The notes beneath the pieces were generated by a model. It did not search any database, was not told the origin of the DNA, and was given only the letters and a program-made list of their open reading frames with translations. Shown here piece by piece: positions 34,459 through 42,333 of a stretch of 46,481 nucleotides of DNA. The translations under genes and the position numbers were made by a program. The stretch is taken from assembly GCA_024226935.1 (NCBI GenBank), contig JAAELK010000552.1, positions 1-46,481 on the forward strand, written 5' to 3'. This DNA is from Desulfobacteraceae bacterium (GTDB taxonomy: Bacteria > Desulfobacterota > Desulfobacteria > Desulfobacterales > Desulfobacteraceae). How positions within the stretch are numbered: position 1 is the stretch's first letter; every line of letters begins with the position of its first letter.

Positions 34459-35694
34459 TTACATGTTTTTGCCTTTAAACAATGGCACAATTTGGGATTG
34501 AATAGATGAACTATTCATGGATTTTTCAATGTCGTCTGTGATAGGAGCTGAAATACTTTCAATATTTAAGATTGATTTTATATAAATATCAGTTGTTGTT
34601 GCCCGTTTATGTCTTAAAAATACTTGAGTTTTTGCAAGTCCTTCTCTTAAAAAGATTTGCACAGCCATGTAATGTCGAATAGAATGCATGGTGAATTCTT
34701 TGAATTTGATATCTTTCACGCCTTGTTTTTTTAATTTTTTTATAACTCTCTTACATAGTCTGGGCATTAAATTATCCAAAGAGTCTTTCGGCATTTGCTC
34801 TCCTACAGAACTCGGGAAAATCCAAGGATAATTTTTCTTATTATTTTTAATCCGTCTGATGAAAATTTTTTTAAGTTCTTTGCCAACCTCCATAATATGG
34901 CTGACTTTTTTACTACCTTGGCGTTTTGTTGTCCATAATGTCAGCTTGTTTACAGTCTCGTTAAAATCTGTATATTGCATGTTTCGAATTTCTCCGGCTC
35001 GGGCACCGGTATGGATTAACGTCCGGATGAGATCAAGTTCATCCTGGGTGGAAACTTTCTTGATTGCTTCAATATCTTCTCCAGGAGGAACATATTTTTC
35101 AAATTCAATTTCATCAAAATCATTTACAGCATCAGCTGGATTGATTTGAATGACTTGATCATGCTTATAATAATTAAAAAAGGTGCGAAGCTCCCTTTTA
35201 TATCTATTGCAGCATTTACCAGGATCCACCGGAATTTTTTTATACTCTTTTTTGGGGGTAGCTCCCGGATCCTGTTCCAAGCGGCTTTGTTCTTTTTGCC
35301 ATTCCATTTGGTCATTCGCAAGGGTATCGTATTTATTATTGAGGAAGTGTCGAATATGAAAAGGCCTGATCTCTTTTAATAAAAGATCAGGCCCTACAAA
35401 CCAAATAAATTGAGTCAAAATATTGGCTTTGCTACTGATAGTATTTTTACTCATCTTACGGCGTCGGGTATCTTTAAGATACTCCAAACCCGCTTTTGAA
35501 ATTTTCGATAGGATCAGAGCTTGTTCCGGATTGAGAAGTCTTAAGCGTCTTTCTTGCTCCCATTGCTGTGCGGCTGCTTCGTTGGGAAAACCACTTTTTT
35601 GTCTTCTCTTGAATCCTTTTATTTTTGAATCTCCGATCCACTTGTTCTTGCCCTTGCTCCTTGGGTCTCGGCGTGCCATCTTCGCTCCATTCAT
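34459..35694 (-). CDS. Tyrosine recombinase integrase
   Basis: A 411-residue phage-type integrase. A basic N-terminal arm-binding region (KWIGDSKIKGFKRRQKSGF) is followed by a SAM-like core-binding domain (about 80-185) and the catalytic domain. Catalytic residues are visible: R232 (HTGARAGEIRNM), H337 and R340 (MHSIRH), H362 (LRHKRATT) and Y371 (TDIYIK). It ends 127 bp from the tRNA-Ser fragment, the normal place for a tRNA-targeting integrase. Its first 221 bases overlap the upstream HTH gene in another frame. Confidence 0.95.
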   Translation of the reverse strand: MNGAKMARRDPRSKGKNKWIGDSKIKGFKRRQKSGFPNEAAAQQWEQERRLRLLNPEQALILSKISKAGLEYLKDTRRRKMSKNTISSKANILTQFIWFVGPDLLLKEIRPFHIRHFLNNKYDTLANDQMEWQKEQSRLEQDPGATPKKEYKKIPVDPGKCCNRYKRELRTFFNYYKHDQVIQINPADAVNDFDEIEFEKYVPPGEDIEAIKKVSTQDELDLIRTLIHTGARAGEIRNMQYTDFNETVNKLTLWTTKRQGSKKVSHIMEVGKELKKIFIRRIKNNKKNYPWIFPSSVGEQMPKDSLDNLMPRLCKRVIKKLKKQGVKDIKFKEFTMHSIRHYMAVQIFLREGLAKTQVFLRHKRATTTDIYIKSILNIESISAPITDDIEKSMNSSSIQSQIVPLFKGKNM

Positions 35695-36722: not shown

Positions 36723-39380
36723 TTATTTTTTAAAAATCCAACATTTAGAAGATATCTTTTTTGTTTTGTGCCAGACCGTTCGGTTTTTTTGCACAAACTT
36801 ATATTTTTTACATGAGGGCAAAACTTTTTTTAATAGTGTAAGGTCTGGAAATTCTTGGCCGTGATCTTTGCAGGCTTCCCGGTAATGATTTAGATTGACG
36901 GCAATAAAGCGGTCATCTGTAGAAAAATTTATTCCATTTTCAATATTTTCTTTGGCGTTAATGTAATCAAAAGTTTCCCAGAATTTTTCCACCAGGGGGT
37001 GGTCAATTTTTATTCGCTCTTCACGATCCAGTGCTCGGCTTCCAAGATATGAAATAAAATCTTGAAGCATAGTTTCTGTAAAATTGGGAAAAATAACTTT
37101 TAAGGCGTGGGCAAAAGCTGCCAGTTGAGCATGGCACTTAATAATTCTTTGGTGGGTGACTCCCCCTTGTTCAAATATTTTTTCCATGGGGTCGAAAGCT
37201 TTGAAATAGATATCAAGGATTTGTTTTTCATTTTTAAGTGCTATTTCTAAAAATCCGCTTACATCTTCAACAGTTTGCCGTTCAAACCATCTGGCAATAT
37301 CTCTGGTGTCTGTAGTATGATGTTTCTTATCAGCATGACAGTGAATGATCCTGGATAATATAGATTCTTCGCCGTCAACTTGTGCATTTTGGCTGAACAC
37401 CATGGTACCCTTAAAACGTTGGGAATTTGTGTTATTATTTCGGGTAGCAACGCCCAGGGTTCCGGTAGTTCTACCATTGTATAGTTCTTTTAGGGTTTCA
37501 AAATCAAACATACCACTTTGTTTGTCATTTCCACCGCTACTATCTGACTCAATCAGAACAACAGGCAAGTTAGAGATCTGACTAAATTCTCTTCGTTTTC
37601 CGGCAGCACTGGCATTCATTACGTTGAACCCCTCGTGATCATTTCGGCCTAATAATTTCCAACAAAATTCCAGTACCGTGGACTTACCAGCACTGGCTTC
37701 TCCTGTGAATTCTAAAAAAGGAAAACTCTTGTGTTCCTTTCTGATTTGTTGGGCAAAAAGACTGCCTAACCAGAATGCTAATACTGCAAGTCCTTGGAAA
37801 TTGAATGCTTTAATAAAATTTGGTAGCCACCCTGGGTCAAATTTACCGTCTGTGTGAAGTTTAAATGAACCCATGTCTGGTTTGATCCCACTGACACCAG
37901 GTTGATTTAGTTGAAAATAGTCTTCATCATTTTTTTCGATCTTTTTTCCATTTTGGAAAGCATGATCATGGAAGATCCAGGCTTTGGCATTATCATCATA
38001 TCCGATAAAAGGAATTGACCGAACTATAGGGGCTCTGGGTGTAAACCATTTTCGTGTTAAACTATTAAAGTCTTTATTTCTTCCTGTGAACATTCCTGCG
38101 GAAGTATTATTCAATAAAGCTCTATGAAAGGTATCACTGCTACTTAGAGATGTACCTTCAATGGCGATAACTTCGCTTGGTGATCCATTTCTATATTGTA
38201 CTTTAAATACATAACGTCGATCCCCTACTAATTCATCTTTTTCAATATAAAGAAACTGGGGAGTTAAATTGCAAATTGAATCTGCCGTAAAATGCATATT
38301 AAATTTTTCAAAACCCTCTGGAGAATTTAGTTCAATTTCATCCTCCTGGAGTTCTGCAGAAAGTTTGGAATCTATCTCAGCTGAATATAAACCATTTTTA
38401 AATTCAATTACATGGGTTCGGCGTGTGGGATATCGACAAACTATAATCCAAACTTTTTCTGCAATACTGTTGGCGGTGAATAAAACCCCTTGGTAAAAAC
38501 ATTCCTCAAAAAAATCATCATTTAATAAGCCAGCTTGCCAAAGATCATCCCAGTCTTTATTTTCATCAGAAAGAAGACAAATTTCCACCTGTTCATCCAT
38601 GGATAATAATTTTATTCGGTGCTTGCGCATTGCCTTGCGTCCGGCCTTGTCTCCATCCATTGCTAACACCCAGATTATATTTTTACCTTTATGCTCTTCT
38701 ATTAAATGTGATGGGAAATTGGAACTTGAAAGCGCAGCTGCTACTTTACGCCCGGTGTGCTCCAGGGCGATAGCATGGAAAATCCCTTCTGTGATAAAAC
38801 ATCTATCCCCCTGTTTTAATTCCTGGCCTGGTGGTGTCCAGGCATCCCCGCGAAATAAAGACCCGTCTTTTTTTCTTCGTCCCCCCATATGGGCTTTTTG
38901 TCCATCGATCTTGGTTTTCCCGATCAACCGCTCCCAGTAACGGGTTCGTTCCAGATCCAGATAAAATCGAATGGTAGGAACATAGTCAGTACTATTTTTG
39001 AGTCTATGGCCCTCTTGGTCGTACCATTTCCGACATCGAGCAGACTTAAAGCCTCTATCCTCTCTTATATAAGCGTCCGCCGTGGCTTTGGGGTTTTCAC
39101 GGGTAGGGGGAAATCGTTTCATATAATTTTCAAATAAGTGGGGCAAAAGCTCTTTAGCCGTCCAGCTTGATCCACAGTTGTTTTCACGGCCACAAGCAAT
39201 CCGCCAGGGTTGGGATTTTCTCACATAAAGCTCTTTTTTTCCGCAAGCGGGACAGATTCCCTCCCGTAGGTATCCGCCCTTATCTTTAATTTGAAACCGA
39301 GAATCTTCCAGCAAGCCCCGGACTATTTCTTCTGCCCGGCTGGAATCCTGGTATTGAGAATAAGCTACATTATTAAGCAT
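36723..39380 (-). CDS. Primase-helicase of the integrated element
   Basis: An 885-residue protein with AAGGAG upstream of the ATG. The order is: a zinc-binding primase finger (C43, C46, C63, C69; CPACGKKEL, IACGRENNCG), a TOPRIM-like part (FITEGIFHAIAL near 195 and VLAMDGDKAGRKAMRKH near 235), then a helicase-type ATPase (DUF927/D5-like) with Walker A FTGEASAGKSTVLEF near 555 and a Walker B-like VVLIESDSSGG near 600. It should make primers and unwind DNA for autonomous replication of the element. This combination is common in phages and satellite elements. Confidence 0.88.
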   Translation of the reverse strand: MLNNVAYSQYQDSSRAEEIVRGLLEDSRFQIKDKGGYLREGICPACGKKELYVRKSQPWRIACGRENNCGSSWTAKELLPHLFENYMKRFPPTRENPKATADAYIREDRGFKSARCRKWYDQEGHRLKNSTDYVPTIRFYLDLERTRYWERLIGKTKIDGQKAHMGGRRKKDGSLFRGDAWTPPGQELKQGDRCFITEGIFHAIALEHTGRKVAAALSSSNFPSHLIEEHKGKNIIWVLAMDGDKAGRKAMRKHRIKLLSMDEQVEICLLSDENKDWDDLWQAGLLNDDFFEECFYQGVLFTANSIAEKVWIIVCRYPTRRTHVIEFKNGLYSAEIDSKLSAELQEDEIELNSPEGFEKFNMHFTADSICNLTPQFLYIEKDELVGDRRYVFKVQYRNGSPSEVIAIEGTSLSSSDTFHRALLNNTSAGMFTGRNKDFNSLTRKWFTPRAPIVRSIPFIGYDDNAKAWIFHDHAFQNGKKIEKNDEDYFQLNQPGVSGIKPDMGSFKLHTDGKFDPGWLPNFIKAFNFQGLAVLAFWLGSLFAQQIRKEHKSFPFLEFTGEASAGKSTVLEFCWKLLGRNDHEGFNVMNASAAGKRREFSQISNLPVVLIESDSSGGNDKQSGMFDFETLKELYNGRTTGTLGVATRNNNTNSQRFKGTMVFSQNAQVDGEESILSRIIHCHADKKHHTTDTRDIARWFERQTVEDVSGFLEIALKNEKQILDIYFKAFDPMEKIFEQGGVTHQRIIKCHAQLAAFAHALKVIFPNFTETMLQDFISYLGSRALDREERIKIDHPLVEKFWETFDYINAKENIENGINFSTDDRFIAVNLNHYREACKDHGQEFPDLTLLKKVLPSCKKYKFVQKNRTVWHKTKKISSKCWIFKK

Positions 39381-39454: not shown

Positions 39455-39928
39455 TTAACTATTTTGTGATCTACTTTTTTTGATCGCTTGATAAAGCCCG
39501 GCAAAGGCTTCCAGGGCTTCCAGGGTTTCTTTTTGACATCGTTCAAGCTCGTCCGGCTTCATTTCATTGTCTAAAATTGATTTTGCTAACTCTGCTACAG
39601 CTTCCCCAGATTCCTTTGCAATTGTTGCACAGCAATCCATCCAGCTTATATTATCCATTTTTTGATCCGGATCGGGAATGGGCAGGCTTATCCTGTTAAA
39701 TAAAAGGTTAACAGCATCAAGGCTTGTAAAATCCTGGGTTTCTTCCAAGGTGACCAACCAGTCCATCAAACCCAGTTTATTTGTGCGGCGACCGATACTT
39801 TTTGGATCAACATCTGCATAAAGAGTAGATGGTGTAATTTCCAGCCGGTCCGCCAACATCTTAACTCCATATTTTTTTACAGTAATTTGCACATCCGATA
39901 AAGCCTTGATTTGATCTTTGCTATACAT
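39455..39928 (-). CDS. Phage CII-like regulatory protein
   Basis: The ATG at 39928 has GGAG eight bases upstream; the longer frame to 39985 adds an unlikely leader. The roughly 157-residue protein has an N-terminal DNA-binding part (VKKYGVKMLADRLEITPSTLYADVDP) and a helical C-terminal part (WMDCCATIAKESGEAVAELA, LEALEAFAGLYQAIKK). This resembles phage regulatory CII-family proteins. It lies between the Ner-like gene and the primase on the same strand, where lysogeny/replication regulators usually sit. Confidence 0.7.
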   Translation of the reverse strand: MYSKDQIKALSDVQITVKKYGVKMLADRLEITPSTLYADVDPKSIGRRTNKLGLMDWLVTLEETQDFTSLDAVNLLFNRISLPIPDPDQKMDNISWMDCCATIAKESGEAVAELAKSILDNEMKPDELERCQKETLEALEAFAGLYQAIKKSRSQNS

Positions 39929-40083
39929 GATTTTTTCTCCTGATCTACTGTTAAATATTTGAAATAAATGAAGTAATCTCAACACTGTAGGAATAGCCTC
40001 TCACTTAAGAAAATTGAAAACTGACTTGATAAAAAATAGAAATTAGCTTAACTATGGTACTACAACGTGTAACTCCGACAAAG

Positions 40084-40314
40084 TTAAGCTCTACTGACCT
40101 TGTCGGTTTTGGATTTGGTTGCCCAGATTTTATCAACTGGGAGTTTGATTAATTTTGAAATATAAGATTGAACCCTTTGGCTTTTACCTGTGCTATGAAT
40201 GATTTGATGGATGAAAGGTTTGGATACTTTGAAGTGTAGAGCTAATTTGACTTGTGTCCATCCTGCTGTTTTGAGAGCTGCTTTAATTTGATCGGGTGTC
40301 ATGGGTGTTTGCAT
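40084..40314 (-). CDS. Small Ner/Cro-like HTH regulator
   Basis: A 76-residue protein with AAGGAG before the ATG. TPDQIKAALKTAGWTQVKLA and FKVSKPFIHQIIHS form a Ner/Nlp-type helix-turn-helix. It is transcribed divergently from the CI-like gene across a 95-bp region with two palindromes, like the early-gene repressor of a lysogeny switch. Confidence 0.8.
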   Translation of the reverse strand: MQTPMTPDQIKAALKTAGWTQVKLALHFKVSKPFIHQIIHSTGKSQRVQSYISKLIKLPVDKIWATKSKTDKVSRA

Positions 40315-40409: not shown

Positions 40410-40883
40410 ATGAAAAAAATTGATACAATAGAAAAAAGACTTAAAGTCATCAGAAAGAAAGCTGGTTTTTCTCAAAAACAATTAGCTGATGTGCTTGGTA
40501 TTACTGCAAGAACCCTGCAAAGATATGAAAAAGATTCTTCAACTTTGCCTGCTAAGGCTGCATTGAAAATATCTCTCTTATGCAATGTAGACTTAAAATG
40601 GTTTCTTGTCGGAGAGGATTCCGAGAGTAATACAACAGATCCCAGCGTGTCAAAAATTGTTGATAAGTTTTTGGAAATCAAAAAATACAGCCCGGGCAGT
40701 TATGATAAGATAAAGCTTTATATAAACACTGTCCATGAAACCGTTAGCTCCATAAAAAAAGAAAAAAACGACTGGCAAGATAAATGGGATAGAATAGAGC
40801 ATCCCGAAAAATATCGACACGAACATAAACAAAATGCTGACATTGTTGAAATAAAAAAGTTTGGAACAACTGATAAGCAATAA
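40410..40883 (+). CDS. CI/XRE-type phage repressor
   Basis: The ATG at 40410 begins the domain directly (MKKIDTIEKRLKVIRKKAG); the longer frame from 40356 would run through the operators. The 157-residue protein has an XRE HTH (FSQKQLADVLGITARTLQRY) at about 20-75, then WFLVGED, and a helical C-terminal part with no protease motif. It is probably the lysogeny repressor of the element, opposed by the Ner/Cro-like gene. Confidence 0.8.
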   Translation: MKKIDTIEKRLKVIRKKAGFSQKQLADVLGITARTLQRYEKDSSTLPAKAALKISLLCNVDLKWFLVGEDSESNTTDPSVSKIVDKFLEIKKYSPGSYDKIKLYINTVHETVSSIKKEKNDWQDKWDRIEHPEKYRHEHKQNADIVEIKKFGTTDKQ

Positions 40884-40912: not shown

Positions 40913-41422
40913 ATGAAAAAAATTGATTTGCAATTGGATTTTGATGCTATTTGTAAAAGGATTGAGCATCATAAAAAACAACACAAACCCGGCGTTTGGG
41001 CTCAGATGACGGGTGTGTCAAAAAATGTTGTTGCAAACATCCATGGTAAGACAAAACAAAAACCATCCCTTGAGTATATAATTGCGGTGGCAAGGGCAAT
41101 CGGCAAACCTGTCGATTACCTGCTCTACGGGAAAGATTCCATTCAAACAGAATCCGGGGAAAAATTGTCGTCTACAGTCATTGAACATCAAAATCTTGTT
41201 AAAAAGTTTAAGGACCCGGAAAAAGGATTAAAAATAAATAAACGATTAATCAAGATAGAAGAATTAAGTAAAGCAATTTACGAAAAGGTCAGTATACAAA
41301 TAAAAGCGTCATACGATGTTGTTGTAGATCTCCAAGACAGTTTGCCTTGGAACGGTGTAGAGCGTAGAAAATCGGAAGACGAGGTGGAGGGGGAAAACGA
41401 AAGGAATGGTACGGATACATAG
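40913..41422 (+). CDS. Second CI-type HTH protein
   Basis: A 169-residue protein with a phage CI repressor HTH (FDAICKRIEHHKKQHKPGVW, GVSKNVVANIHGKTKQKPSL, IGKPVDYLLYGKD). A helical middle part (about 85-140) and PWNGVERRKSEDE linker follow. The only GGAGG is about 23 bases before the ATG, too far for normal use, with an AGTTAAGTT half site between. In the -1 frame right after its C-terminus lies a PAS-like sequence, so the intact protein may once have been, or still be, a longer HTH-PAS protein. Confidence 0.75.
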   Translation: MKKIDLQLDFDAICKRIEHHKKQHKPGVWAQMTGVSKNVVANIHGKTKQKPSLEYIIAVARAIGKPVDYLLYGKDSIQTESGEKLSSTVIEHQNLVKKFKDPEKGLKINKRLIKIEELSKAIYEKVSIQIKASYDVVVDLQDSLPWNGVERRKSEDEVEGENERNGTDT

Positions 41423-41733
41423 AACCTGTCAATATTTTAGACAGAAGTAAAGATATTGTAGTTAATACAGATAAAAAAGGTCGCATAACAAAAATAATAA
41501 ACAGTACCCATCCTGATCCCGCTTCTCTCACCGGTACTTATTTCCACAGCTTGTTTGTGGACAACTTTATGGAAAGATTTTATGAACTTCGCCGTGAAAT
41601 TTTAAAGGGAAGTTCCCCCAGGGACTTTGTCTGGCTTGCCAATTTTCGGGGTCGCCTGGAACTGCGCAGATGCAGAATAATAAAATCAAAAGAAGGGTTA
41701 TGGATAATCAATTATAAGATTGATCCTTTATGA
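41368..41733 (+). CDS. PAS-like domain without its own start, out of frame with the HTH gene
   Basis: From about 41413 the frame reads EWYGYIEPVNILDRSKDIVV, then NTDKKGRITKII, LTGTYFHSLFVDNF, FVWLANFRGRLELR and EGLWIINYKIDPL, a plausible compact PAS fold. There is no ATG, GTG or TTG until an ATG at 41551, which would drop half the domain. The frame is -1 relative to the upstream HTH gene. The overlap contains GGGGGAAAAC (41389-41398), where an indel or slippage could join the two. Confidence 0.5.
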   Translation, partial: KIGRRGGGGKRKEWYGYIEPVNILDRSKDIVVNTDKKGRITKIINSTHPDPASLTGTYFHSLFVDNFMERFYELRREILKGSSPRDFVWLANFRGRLELRRCRIIKSKEGLWIINYKIDPL

Positions 41734-41817: not shown

Positions 41818-42333
41818 ATGCACATGCGGAAAACTCTTGCTCTTGTTTTGTTGATTCTCTTTTTCTTACTATCTGGTTGCGGTGACAGTCCTGTCTCTCC
41901 TAAAAAAATACTAAATGTAAGCACTATAGAAAATTCAGATAATGGTGGAACCAAAACAGTTAGTATTTCTTTTGGTAATGATGACAGTCATTACATCGCT
42001 GTGTCTGTAAATTCTAAATATATTAAAGAAGGCACTGAGCTTAGGTCAAGTAATATTAGTTTATCACATGATTTATTCCCTTTTTCTGCTTGGGGGAAAT
42101 TTCACTATCTTGTTACATCACAGCATCCTACATTCGTCGATCTTAAAATAATTTCTATTGATATGGAAAAGAAAAAAGCGATAGTTCAAATTGCTGGCAA
42201 ACTTTTTAATTCTAACACAAAAAAATATATTGAATTTGAAAAAAAATCCTTTGAAATAACCGGGGAATTTTTTGATAAGTTCACACATTTTTTAGTAGCC
42301 AAGGAAGAAAAAGTAACAATGACTCTTAAGTGA
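41818..42333 (+). CDS. Lipoprotein of unknown function
   Basis: A 171-residue protein with CGGAGG before the ATG and a textbook lipoprotein signal (RKTLALVLLILFFLLSGCG; lipidated Cys21). The rest is beta-rich with repeated Ser/Lys and no recognised domain. It is carried within the integrated element as cargo, possibly a surface or exclusion protein, but this is speculation. Confidence 0.7.
   Translation: MHMRKTLALVLLILFFLLSGCGDSPVSPKKILNVSTIENSDNGGTKTVSISFGNDDSHYIAVSVNSKYIKEGTELRSSNISLSHDLFPFSAWGKFHYLVTSQHPTFVDLKIISIDMEKKKAIVQIAGKLFNSNTKKYIEFEKKSFEITGEFFDKFTHFLVAKEEKVTMTLK

Follow-up and report, generated by a model that had tools for sequence, protein, structure and literature searches.

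A recurring repressor/PAS gene layout suggests frame slipping in regulators of temperate elements of Desulfobacteraceae

Introduction

Recoding is known for transposases and polymerase subunits, for virion proteins of phages and, among conjugative elements, for at least one activator. FseA of ICEMlSym(R7A), a transcriptional activator, is produced via +1 ribosomal frameshifting (PMC5009743). Transcriptional slippage yields two products per gene from mxiE in Shigella and dnaX in Thermus (PMC5009743, PMC1088944). Within the IS1 and IS3 families, 72% of the heptamers are A_AAA_AAG or A_AAA_AAA (PMC4066793). The cro gene of Lactobacillus phage A2 undergoes −1 frameshifting in E. coli, which is apparently irrelevant in L. 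casei (PMC5009743), and VqmA of vibriophage VP882 is a temperate element's regulator with a PAS and a DNA-binding domain (PMC8284805).

Here we describe a Desulfobacteraceae locus, contained in a 46,481-nt stretch of DNA that was analysed as a whole (the window), where the gene of a phage-type repressor overlaps a PAS-like reading frame in −1. Compared by mechanism only, it resembles FseA in that the master regulator of a mobile element would be a fusion of two ORFs with recoding near the end of the first. FseA, however, is a +1 product and an activator of excision, whereas the shift here would be −1, the second part is a predicted PAS sensor and the first part alone resembles a complete repressor. 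As in dnaX, where a run of nine A is used, and in mxiE, where an extended regulator results, slippage would give two products of one gene, but neither of these is a phage repressor, and the slipped product of dnaX is the shorter one; to our knowledge, slippage adds a sensor domain in neither case. The junctions of relatives of our locus contain the same A-rich class of in-frame heptamers as IS1 and IS3 elements. In the latter the fusion is a transposase and often aided by RNA structure, whereas the HTH–PAS junctions share no consistent structure. Like A2 cro, the gene would combine −1 frameshifting with a lysogeny switch, but the shifted A2 product is 12 residues shorter and gains no domain. 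As in VP882, a temperate element has a regulator with PAS and DNA-binding domains; in VqmA the PAS domain is N-terminal, the HTH is LuxR-like and the protein is an activator, and we know of no recoding in its synthesis. Among the matches listed in our literature search, mostly titles and beginnings of abstracts, none described a phage-type repressor to which recoding adds a PAS or other sensor domain, and the words 'PAS' and 'HTH' are absent from the main text of the GeneTack paper (PMC3711429).

Methods

After removal of duplicates, 19 loci with an HTH gene followed by a PAS-like frame were kept. The PAS frame is in −1 in 17 of them (the window, L002, L003, L004, L008, L009, L011, L012, L014, L018, L019, L037, L038, L048 and the viral contigs L068, L072 and L081) and in +1 in L051 and L071. 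Duplicates left out were L075–L078 (as L008, L009, L012 and L014), L067 and L079 (as L071), L080 (as L072), L001, L005, L007, L039, L041, L042, L043–L047, L049, L050, L052, L057–L059, L061, L063 and L082, plus refetched HTH genes; duplicates on the PAS side were matched by coordinates. Also left out were fragments or PAS frames lacking an HTH neighbour (L053, L060, L064, L083 and L062, a short match beside L037), PAS parts of 420–816 aa frames (L054–L056, L065, L066) and a weak 32-residue hit (L006). L018 was put into profile A1 by judgement, ahead of the profile search.

Coding selection was assessed in five close pairs from the 17 −1 loci upstream of the A-run and in the overlap, and in four of those five after the HTH stop, against a null in which the observed substitutions were relocated at random. 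PAS-less controls comprised three pairs in this null and four in a count of third-position changes (L073/L074 gave no tail codons). The 14 close PAS-less homologues used as controls were our choice; L026 and L096 are the same place and were counted once, and L010 was counted as PAS-less despite its 36 PAS-like −1 codons.

Results and discussion

The HTH gene of the window (Table 1) had been called CI-type in a preliminary description of the sequence. This putative assignment rests on sub-threshold Pfam matches to HTH_3 (17.7 bits, E=0.0037; cut-off 23) and Phage_CI_repr (16.4 bits, E=0.012; cut-off 22) and on a match to the transcriptional regulator family phrog_8 (E=1.3e-6). In the model of the protein (pLDDT 69.2, pTM 0.40), the HTH domain occupies the N-terminus and is followed by a linker of poor prediction quality, a long helix (residues 102–143) and a low-confidence tail ending in NERNGTDT. 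An appended PAS domain would thus come after a helix that could relay a signal.

Table 1. Features at the HTH/PAS junction and in its surroundings (positions in the window)
Feature	Position	Strand	Remarks
Tyrosine integrase	34459..35694	−	
DNA primase	36723..39380	−	phrog_1139
CII-like regulator	39455..39985	−	Phage_CP76
Divergent small HTH gene (Ner/Cro position)	40084..40314	−	phrog_769 repressor; weak HTH_35
Second CI-like HTH gene, directly upstream	40410..40883	+	ATG 40410; ORF listed from TTG 40356
HTH (Xre/CI-like) repressor ORF, frame 0	40913..41422	+	169 aa, ATG start
HTH/−1 overlap	41368..41422	+	bounded by −1 stop TAG 41365–41367 and frame-0 stop TAG 41420–41422
Startless open −1 frame with predicted PAS-fold domain	41368..41733	+	core about 41450–41730; stop 41731–41733
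A_AAA, second in-frame candidate tetramer	41368..41371	+	start of permitted interval
GGGGGAAAAC, candidate shift site	41389..41398	+	in-frame tetramers G_GGG 41389–41392 and A_AAC 41395–41398
Putative lipoprotein, downstream	41818..42333	+	phrog_25845; lipobox by eye

The −1 frame opens directly behind a stop codon of its own frame and has no usual start near this point: its earliest ATG, GTG or TTG is a TTG at 41551, within the PAS domain. It had been proposed that the PAS sequence lacks a start codon and begins exactly where the HTH gene ends. The former holds, while the latter needs correction, as the frame is open from 52 nt before the HTH stop; the PAS core begins about 30 nt past that stop. 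Since the overlap is bounded by the −1 stop and the HTH stop, any shift from frame 0 to −1 falls between 41368 and 41420.

An AlphaFold2 model of 41395–41730 (pLDDT 71.8, pTM 0.64) has the order of strands and helices by which we defined the PAS fold, namely two strands, helices and three strands. Foldseek found nothing at E<=1e-3 with this model (best E 2.7e-3); its top matches were photoactive yellow protein and other PAS domains, and nearly all of the best 50 rows carried titles of PAS proteins, an exception being PilB (rank 49). VIA-align gave its best Z of 8.9 (rmsd 2.7 over 83 residues) with the PAS domain of SrrB and a Z of 8.6 with the solved Vibrio cholerae structure of VqmA, and the rows listed were PAS proteins, judged by title as far as recognisable. 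By sequence, the −1 ORF of the window matched no Pfam family at E<=1 and no PHROG. The 13 −1 ORF members of the profile matched no PAS family in Pfam at E<=10, only two unrelated weak families, and their profile found no PAS chain among PDB sequences, only one unrelated chain at E 0.59. There was no match of the window's PAS sequence in plasmids or of that of L004 in phages. The PAS identity is thus predicted from structure comparison, and the sequence searches reach no known relative. The HTH protein of L003, searched against phages, matched 45 records, the best 20 listed of which align with the N-terminal HTH only.

Within the PAS domain, a near-invariant cysteine occupies a late strand (41671–41673 in the window; residue 102 of L003 in the A1 column) and is a possible redox, heme or metal ligand. 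At least 90% of the 13 PAS rows retain one cysteine.

The layout of an HTH gene followed by a −1 PAS frame recurs. Besides the window, it was found in three paralogous loci of the same genome (L002, L003 and L004), ten loci in relatives of one family and three viral contigs. No frame-0 fusion occurs in any of the 19 HTH–PAS loci, so that the uninterrupted homologues that the preliminary description suggested looking for did not turn up. In all −1 loci but one (16 of 17), the first ATG, GTG or TTG comes 32–158 nt after the HTH stop, counted from its first base; L002 is the exception, with a GTG at +5. Separate genes with own starts, named in the preliminary description as the refuting observation, exist in two of the 19 loci (L051 and L071). 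This case is thus realised in part: the ATG of the PAS gene lies in the end of the HTH gene, 26 and 11 nt ahead of its stop, but there the PAS gene is in +1, not −1.

Searching the family with the profile of −1 ORFs gave matches in 14 of its 86 genomes. Three of these (G015, G027 and G039) had matches only inside frames of 743–749 aa and one (G014, locus L053) lacked an HTH neighbour, which leaves ten. Across the order 13 of 389 genomes were matched, and the two matches outside the family lie within longer frames, of 816 aa in G096 and 420 aa in G162. When viral sequences were scanned, neither the window/L037 PAS pair nor the A5 PAS set turned up a relative. Searched for across the class, the window's own subtype came up in 3 of 389 genomes, those of the window, of the L037 place and of the fragment L083.

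Two further types of locus were seen in passing. L010 (reverse strand; same order, other family) has 36 codons resembling a PAS start in −1 after the HTH stop, as judged by eye, and then a stop; it is possibly a decayed HTH–PAS copy. L064 (1408–1794, forward strand) and L060 (1402–1791, reverse strand) contain stand-alone, weakly related PAS-like ORFs with their own ATG (E 1.7e-5 and 5.8e-5), with no HTH neighbour of the family, and the conserved cysteine is missing by eye.

Substitution patterns indicate that the coding frame changes at the junction. Upstream of the A-run, frame 0 was protected (97 amino acid changes compared with 120.6 under the null, P<2e-4; five close pairs) and −1 was not (P=0.996; same pairs). 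In the first 60 codons past the HTH stop, only −1 was protected (77 versus 102.6, P<2e-4; four pairs). In the overlap of the A-run loci, conservation of −1 was weak (P=0.09; frame 0, P=0.18), and in the tails of the three PAS-less control pairs neither frame was protected (P=0.46 for −1 and P=0.93 for frame 0). L003/L004 alone had 3 changes in −1 (6.6 expected) and 7 in frame 0 (7.1 expected). The window and its nearest relative, L037, show 45, 30 and 71 differences at codon positions 1, 2 and 3 over 104 codons of the PAS frame, with 45 residues identical. The open −1 frame of the window exceeds what chance would provide, since coding selection acts on this frame in relatives. Under synonymous recoding, the joint probability of −1 openness over the overlap is about exp(−24), assuming 17 independent loci; the loci are, however, related by descent, so that tests across them are not independent, and the junctions of the window and L037 were set by hand. 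We also considered suppression of third-position changes in the overlap as a sign of dual coding (21/90 versus 210/381), but PAS-less tails suppress them too (6/67 versus 94/351), and this unspecific signal was set aside.

A feature of the junction in most relatives is a homopolymer. Fifteen of the 17 −1 loci carry a run of A8 (seven loci), A9 (six) or A10 (two) that starts 26–80 nt ahead of the HTH stop, and all 15 contain an in-frame A_AAA_AA(A/G), which is missing from the window and L037. Within the final 120 nt of the HTH gene, a run of at least eight A was present in 17 of 19 HTH–PAS loci and in 0 of 14 close PAS-less homologues (Fisher 1.5e-7, for loci that are not independent); among all distinct PAS-less HTH matches it occurred in 2 of 33 (L022 and L040, both A8). 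Lysine-rich tails account for part of this enrichment: with 80% AAA for lysine, synonymous recoding predicts A8 or longer in 9.6 of the 19 HTH–PAS loci and in 1.25 PAS-less loci. The two +1 loci also keep their runs (A10 and A8). In L004, L009, L014 and L018 the run begins inside a −1 stop codon, so that any shift would have to lie within the run or beyond it. A search for a downstream RNA stimulator revealed none that was consistent (z −1.99 to 1.5; 17 loci, home-made shuffle covering structures other than pseudoknots).

We propose, with a probability of about 0.62, that these loci represent a conserved recoded regulator gene that encodes a short repressor and, by slippage, an HTH–PAS fusion. 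Reading in frame 0 would produce the short repressor, consisting of the HTH domain, the long helix and a short tail. Some products would slip to −1 near the end of the HTH gene and so gain a C-terminal PAS sensor. In most relatives, the slip would occur at A8–A10, caused either by transcriptional slippage or by the ribosome slipping to −1 on A_AAA_AA(A/G). One gene would thereby supply sensorless and sensor-bearing repressors, which may form mixed oligomers at the lysogeny switch of the element, and through its PAS-bearing share the repressor could become responsive to a small molecule or to the redox state. For the family, the recurring layout thus suggests two versions of the repressor, with and without sensor. 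That slippage gives two products, as was proposed for the window, is therefore supported at the family level by comparison, but not for GGGGGAAAAC as the site in the window. Frame-0 HTH tails often end in a basic stretch followed by NG or NGT (NGTDG, NGK, NGD), and since this ending is shared by homologues that have PAS and by others that lack it, the short form is probably complete in itself.

Run lengths near nine, the lack of a consistent stimulator and the persistence of the run in the +1 loci favour transcriptional slippage, and the in-frame heptamer keeps ribosomal slippage in play; by judgement, we lean slightly to the former within the slippage reading. Selection against slippage is evident at nine nucleotides in many genomes (PMC1088944). 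A more specific version, in which RNA polymerase slippage at the A-run puts the PAS domain on a fixed share of the repressors of temperate elements in Desulfobacteraceae as a stochastic sensor, is a tentative extension. RNA polymerase slippage that reaches −1 or +1 would explain the run in the two +1 loci, and the switch of each cell would be tuned by its mix of blind and sensing subunits. In these anaerobes, a redox or metal signal would be in keeping with the near-invariant cysteine.

The principal competing explanation, which we consider improbable but worth weighing, is translational coupling: a separate PAS protein would be made by termination and reinitiation at a non-standard start behind purine-rich sequence, in the window for example at an AUA that overlaps the HTH stop codon. 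In its favour, PAS has its own, overlapping ATG in L051 and L071, L060 and L064 contain stand-alone PAS-like ORFs with ATG, and in the window GGAGG (41386–41390) and AAGGA (41401–41405) lie upstream. Constructs with a G-run are suspected, in section 16 of PMC4066793, to have acted as Shine–Dalgarno sequences for low-level initiation in E. coli at an AUA 7 nt behind. In the window, however, 13 nt separate the overlapping ATA from AAGGA and 25 nt separate it from the G-run, far compared with the usual spacing. Also against coupling, 16 of 17 −1 loci have no usual start near the junction, no start position is common to the loci, and four loci have a −1 stop at the A-run. By eye, the overlap of the window and L037 has kept the frame-0 NGT but not the −1 sequence before the HTH stop, which speaks for coupling; thus PAS could be reached in this subtype via another site or by reinitiation.

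For the frameshifted fusion, the window is the atypical member. Over the final 120 nt of its HTH gene, the longest A run is 4 (6 in L037), compared with a run of about nine or more A/T expected for transcriptional slippage. No X_XXZ_ZZN heptamer is in frame between 41368 and 41419, only the tetramers A_AAA, G_GGG and A_AAC. GGGGGAAAAC does lie in the overlap and within the permitted interval, as first described. As a shift site it is not borne out: most relatives carry A8–A10 near its place, and G_GGG and A_AAC are absent from the six effective E. coli tetramers in section 16 of PMC4066793, of which A_AAA was the weakest (measured with the IS3 pseudoknot). We judge a frameshifted fusion in the window itself to be an even bet and rate it higher for the family.

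A recent indel or an assembly error, by which a continuous HTH–PAS gene was broken in the window only, would fit its lack of the relatives' A-run, its G5 homopolymer and its origin from a 590-contig assembly. We regard this as quite unlikely, as the −1 relation is found in 16 further loci and frame 0 in none, and the window's PAS frame is intact and has diverged from L037 in a coding pattern. The earlier suggestion of a broken HTH–PAS regulator is likewise disfavoured by the 17 of 19 loci that are in −1 despite runs of A8–A10 (15 loci), A6 and A4, with none in frame 0. Homopolymers of eight to ten A, as seen at the junction, are prone to length change, but phase variation, in which replication slippage would genetically toggle the fusion, is very improbable, because the 15 A-run −1 loci keep one frame relation with runs of 8, 9 and 10 and the in-frame loci to be expected were not found.

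If recoding is correct, the repressors are designed to occur in two forms, the sensor half escapes gene callers, and freezing the run in either frame makes the elements' lysogeny decision directly testable.

The HTH and PAS genes of the window sit inside an integrated virus-like element (Table 1). The position is that of an immunity region, with a divergent phrog_769 gene (the second HTH gene lying between), a CII-like gene, a primase and an integrase. The paralogous locus L003 also has a divergent HTH_35 (Ner-type) gene (E=4.2e-10). CI-like HTH genes are in tandem in the window, and only one is present in the L003 and L004 stretches. A putative lipoprotein gene lies 3′ of HTH/PAS in all three (L003 2202–2858, L004 2206–2874); the window's lipoprotein is unlike those of L003 and L004. 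The genome of the window and G003 are placed in one genus, and the junction sequences of L008 (G003) and L075 (Desulfobacula sp. isolate S2_67) are identical.
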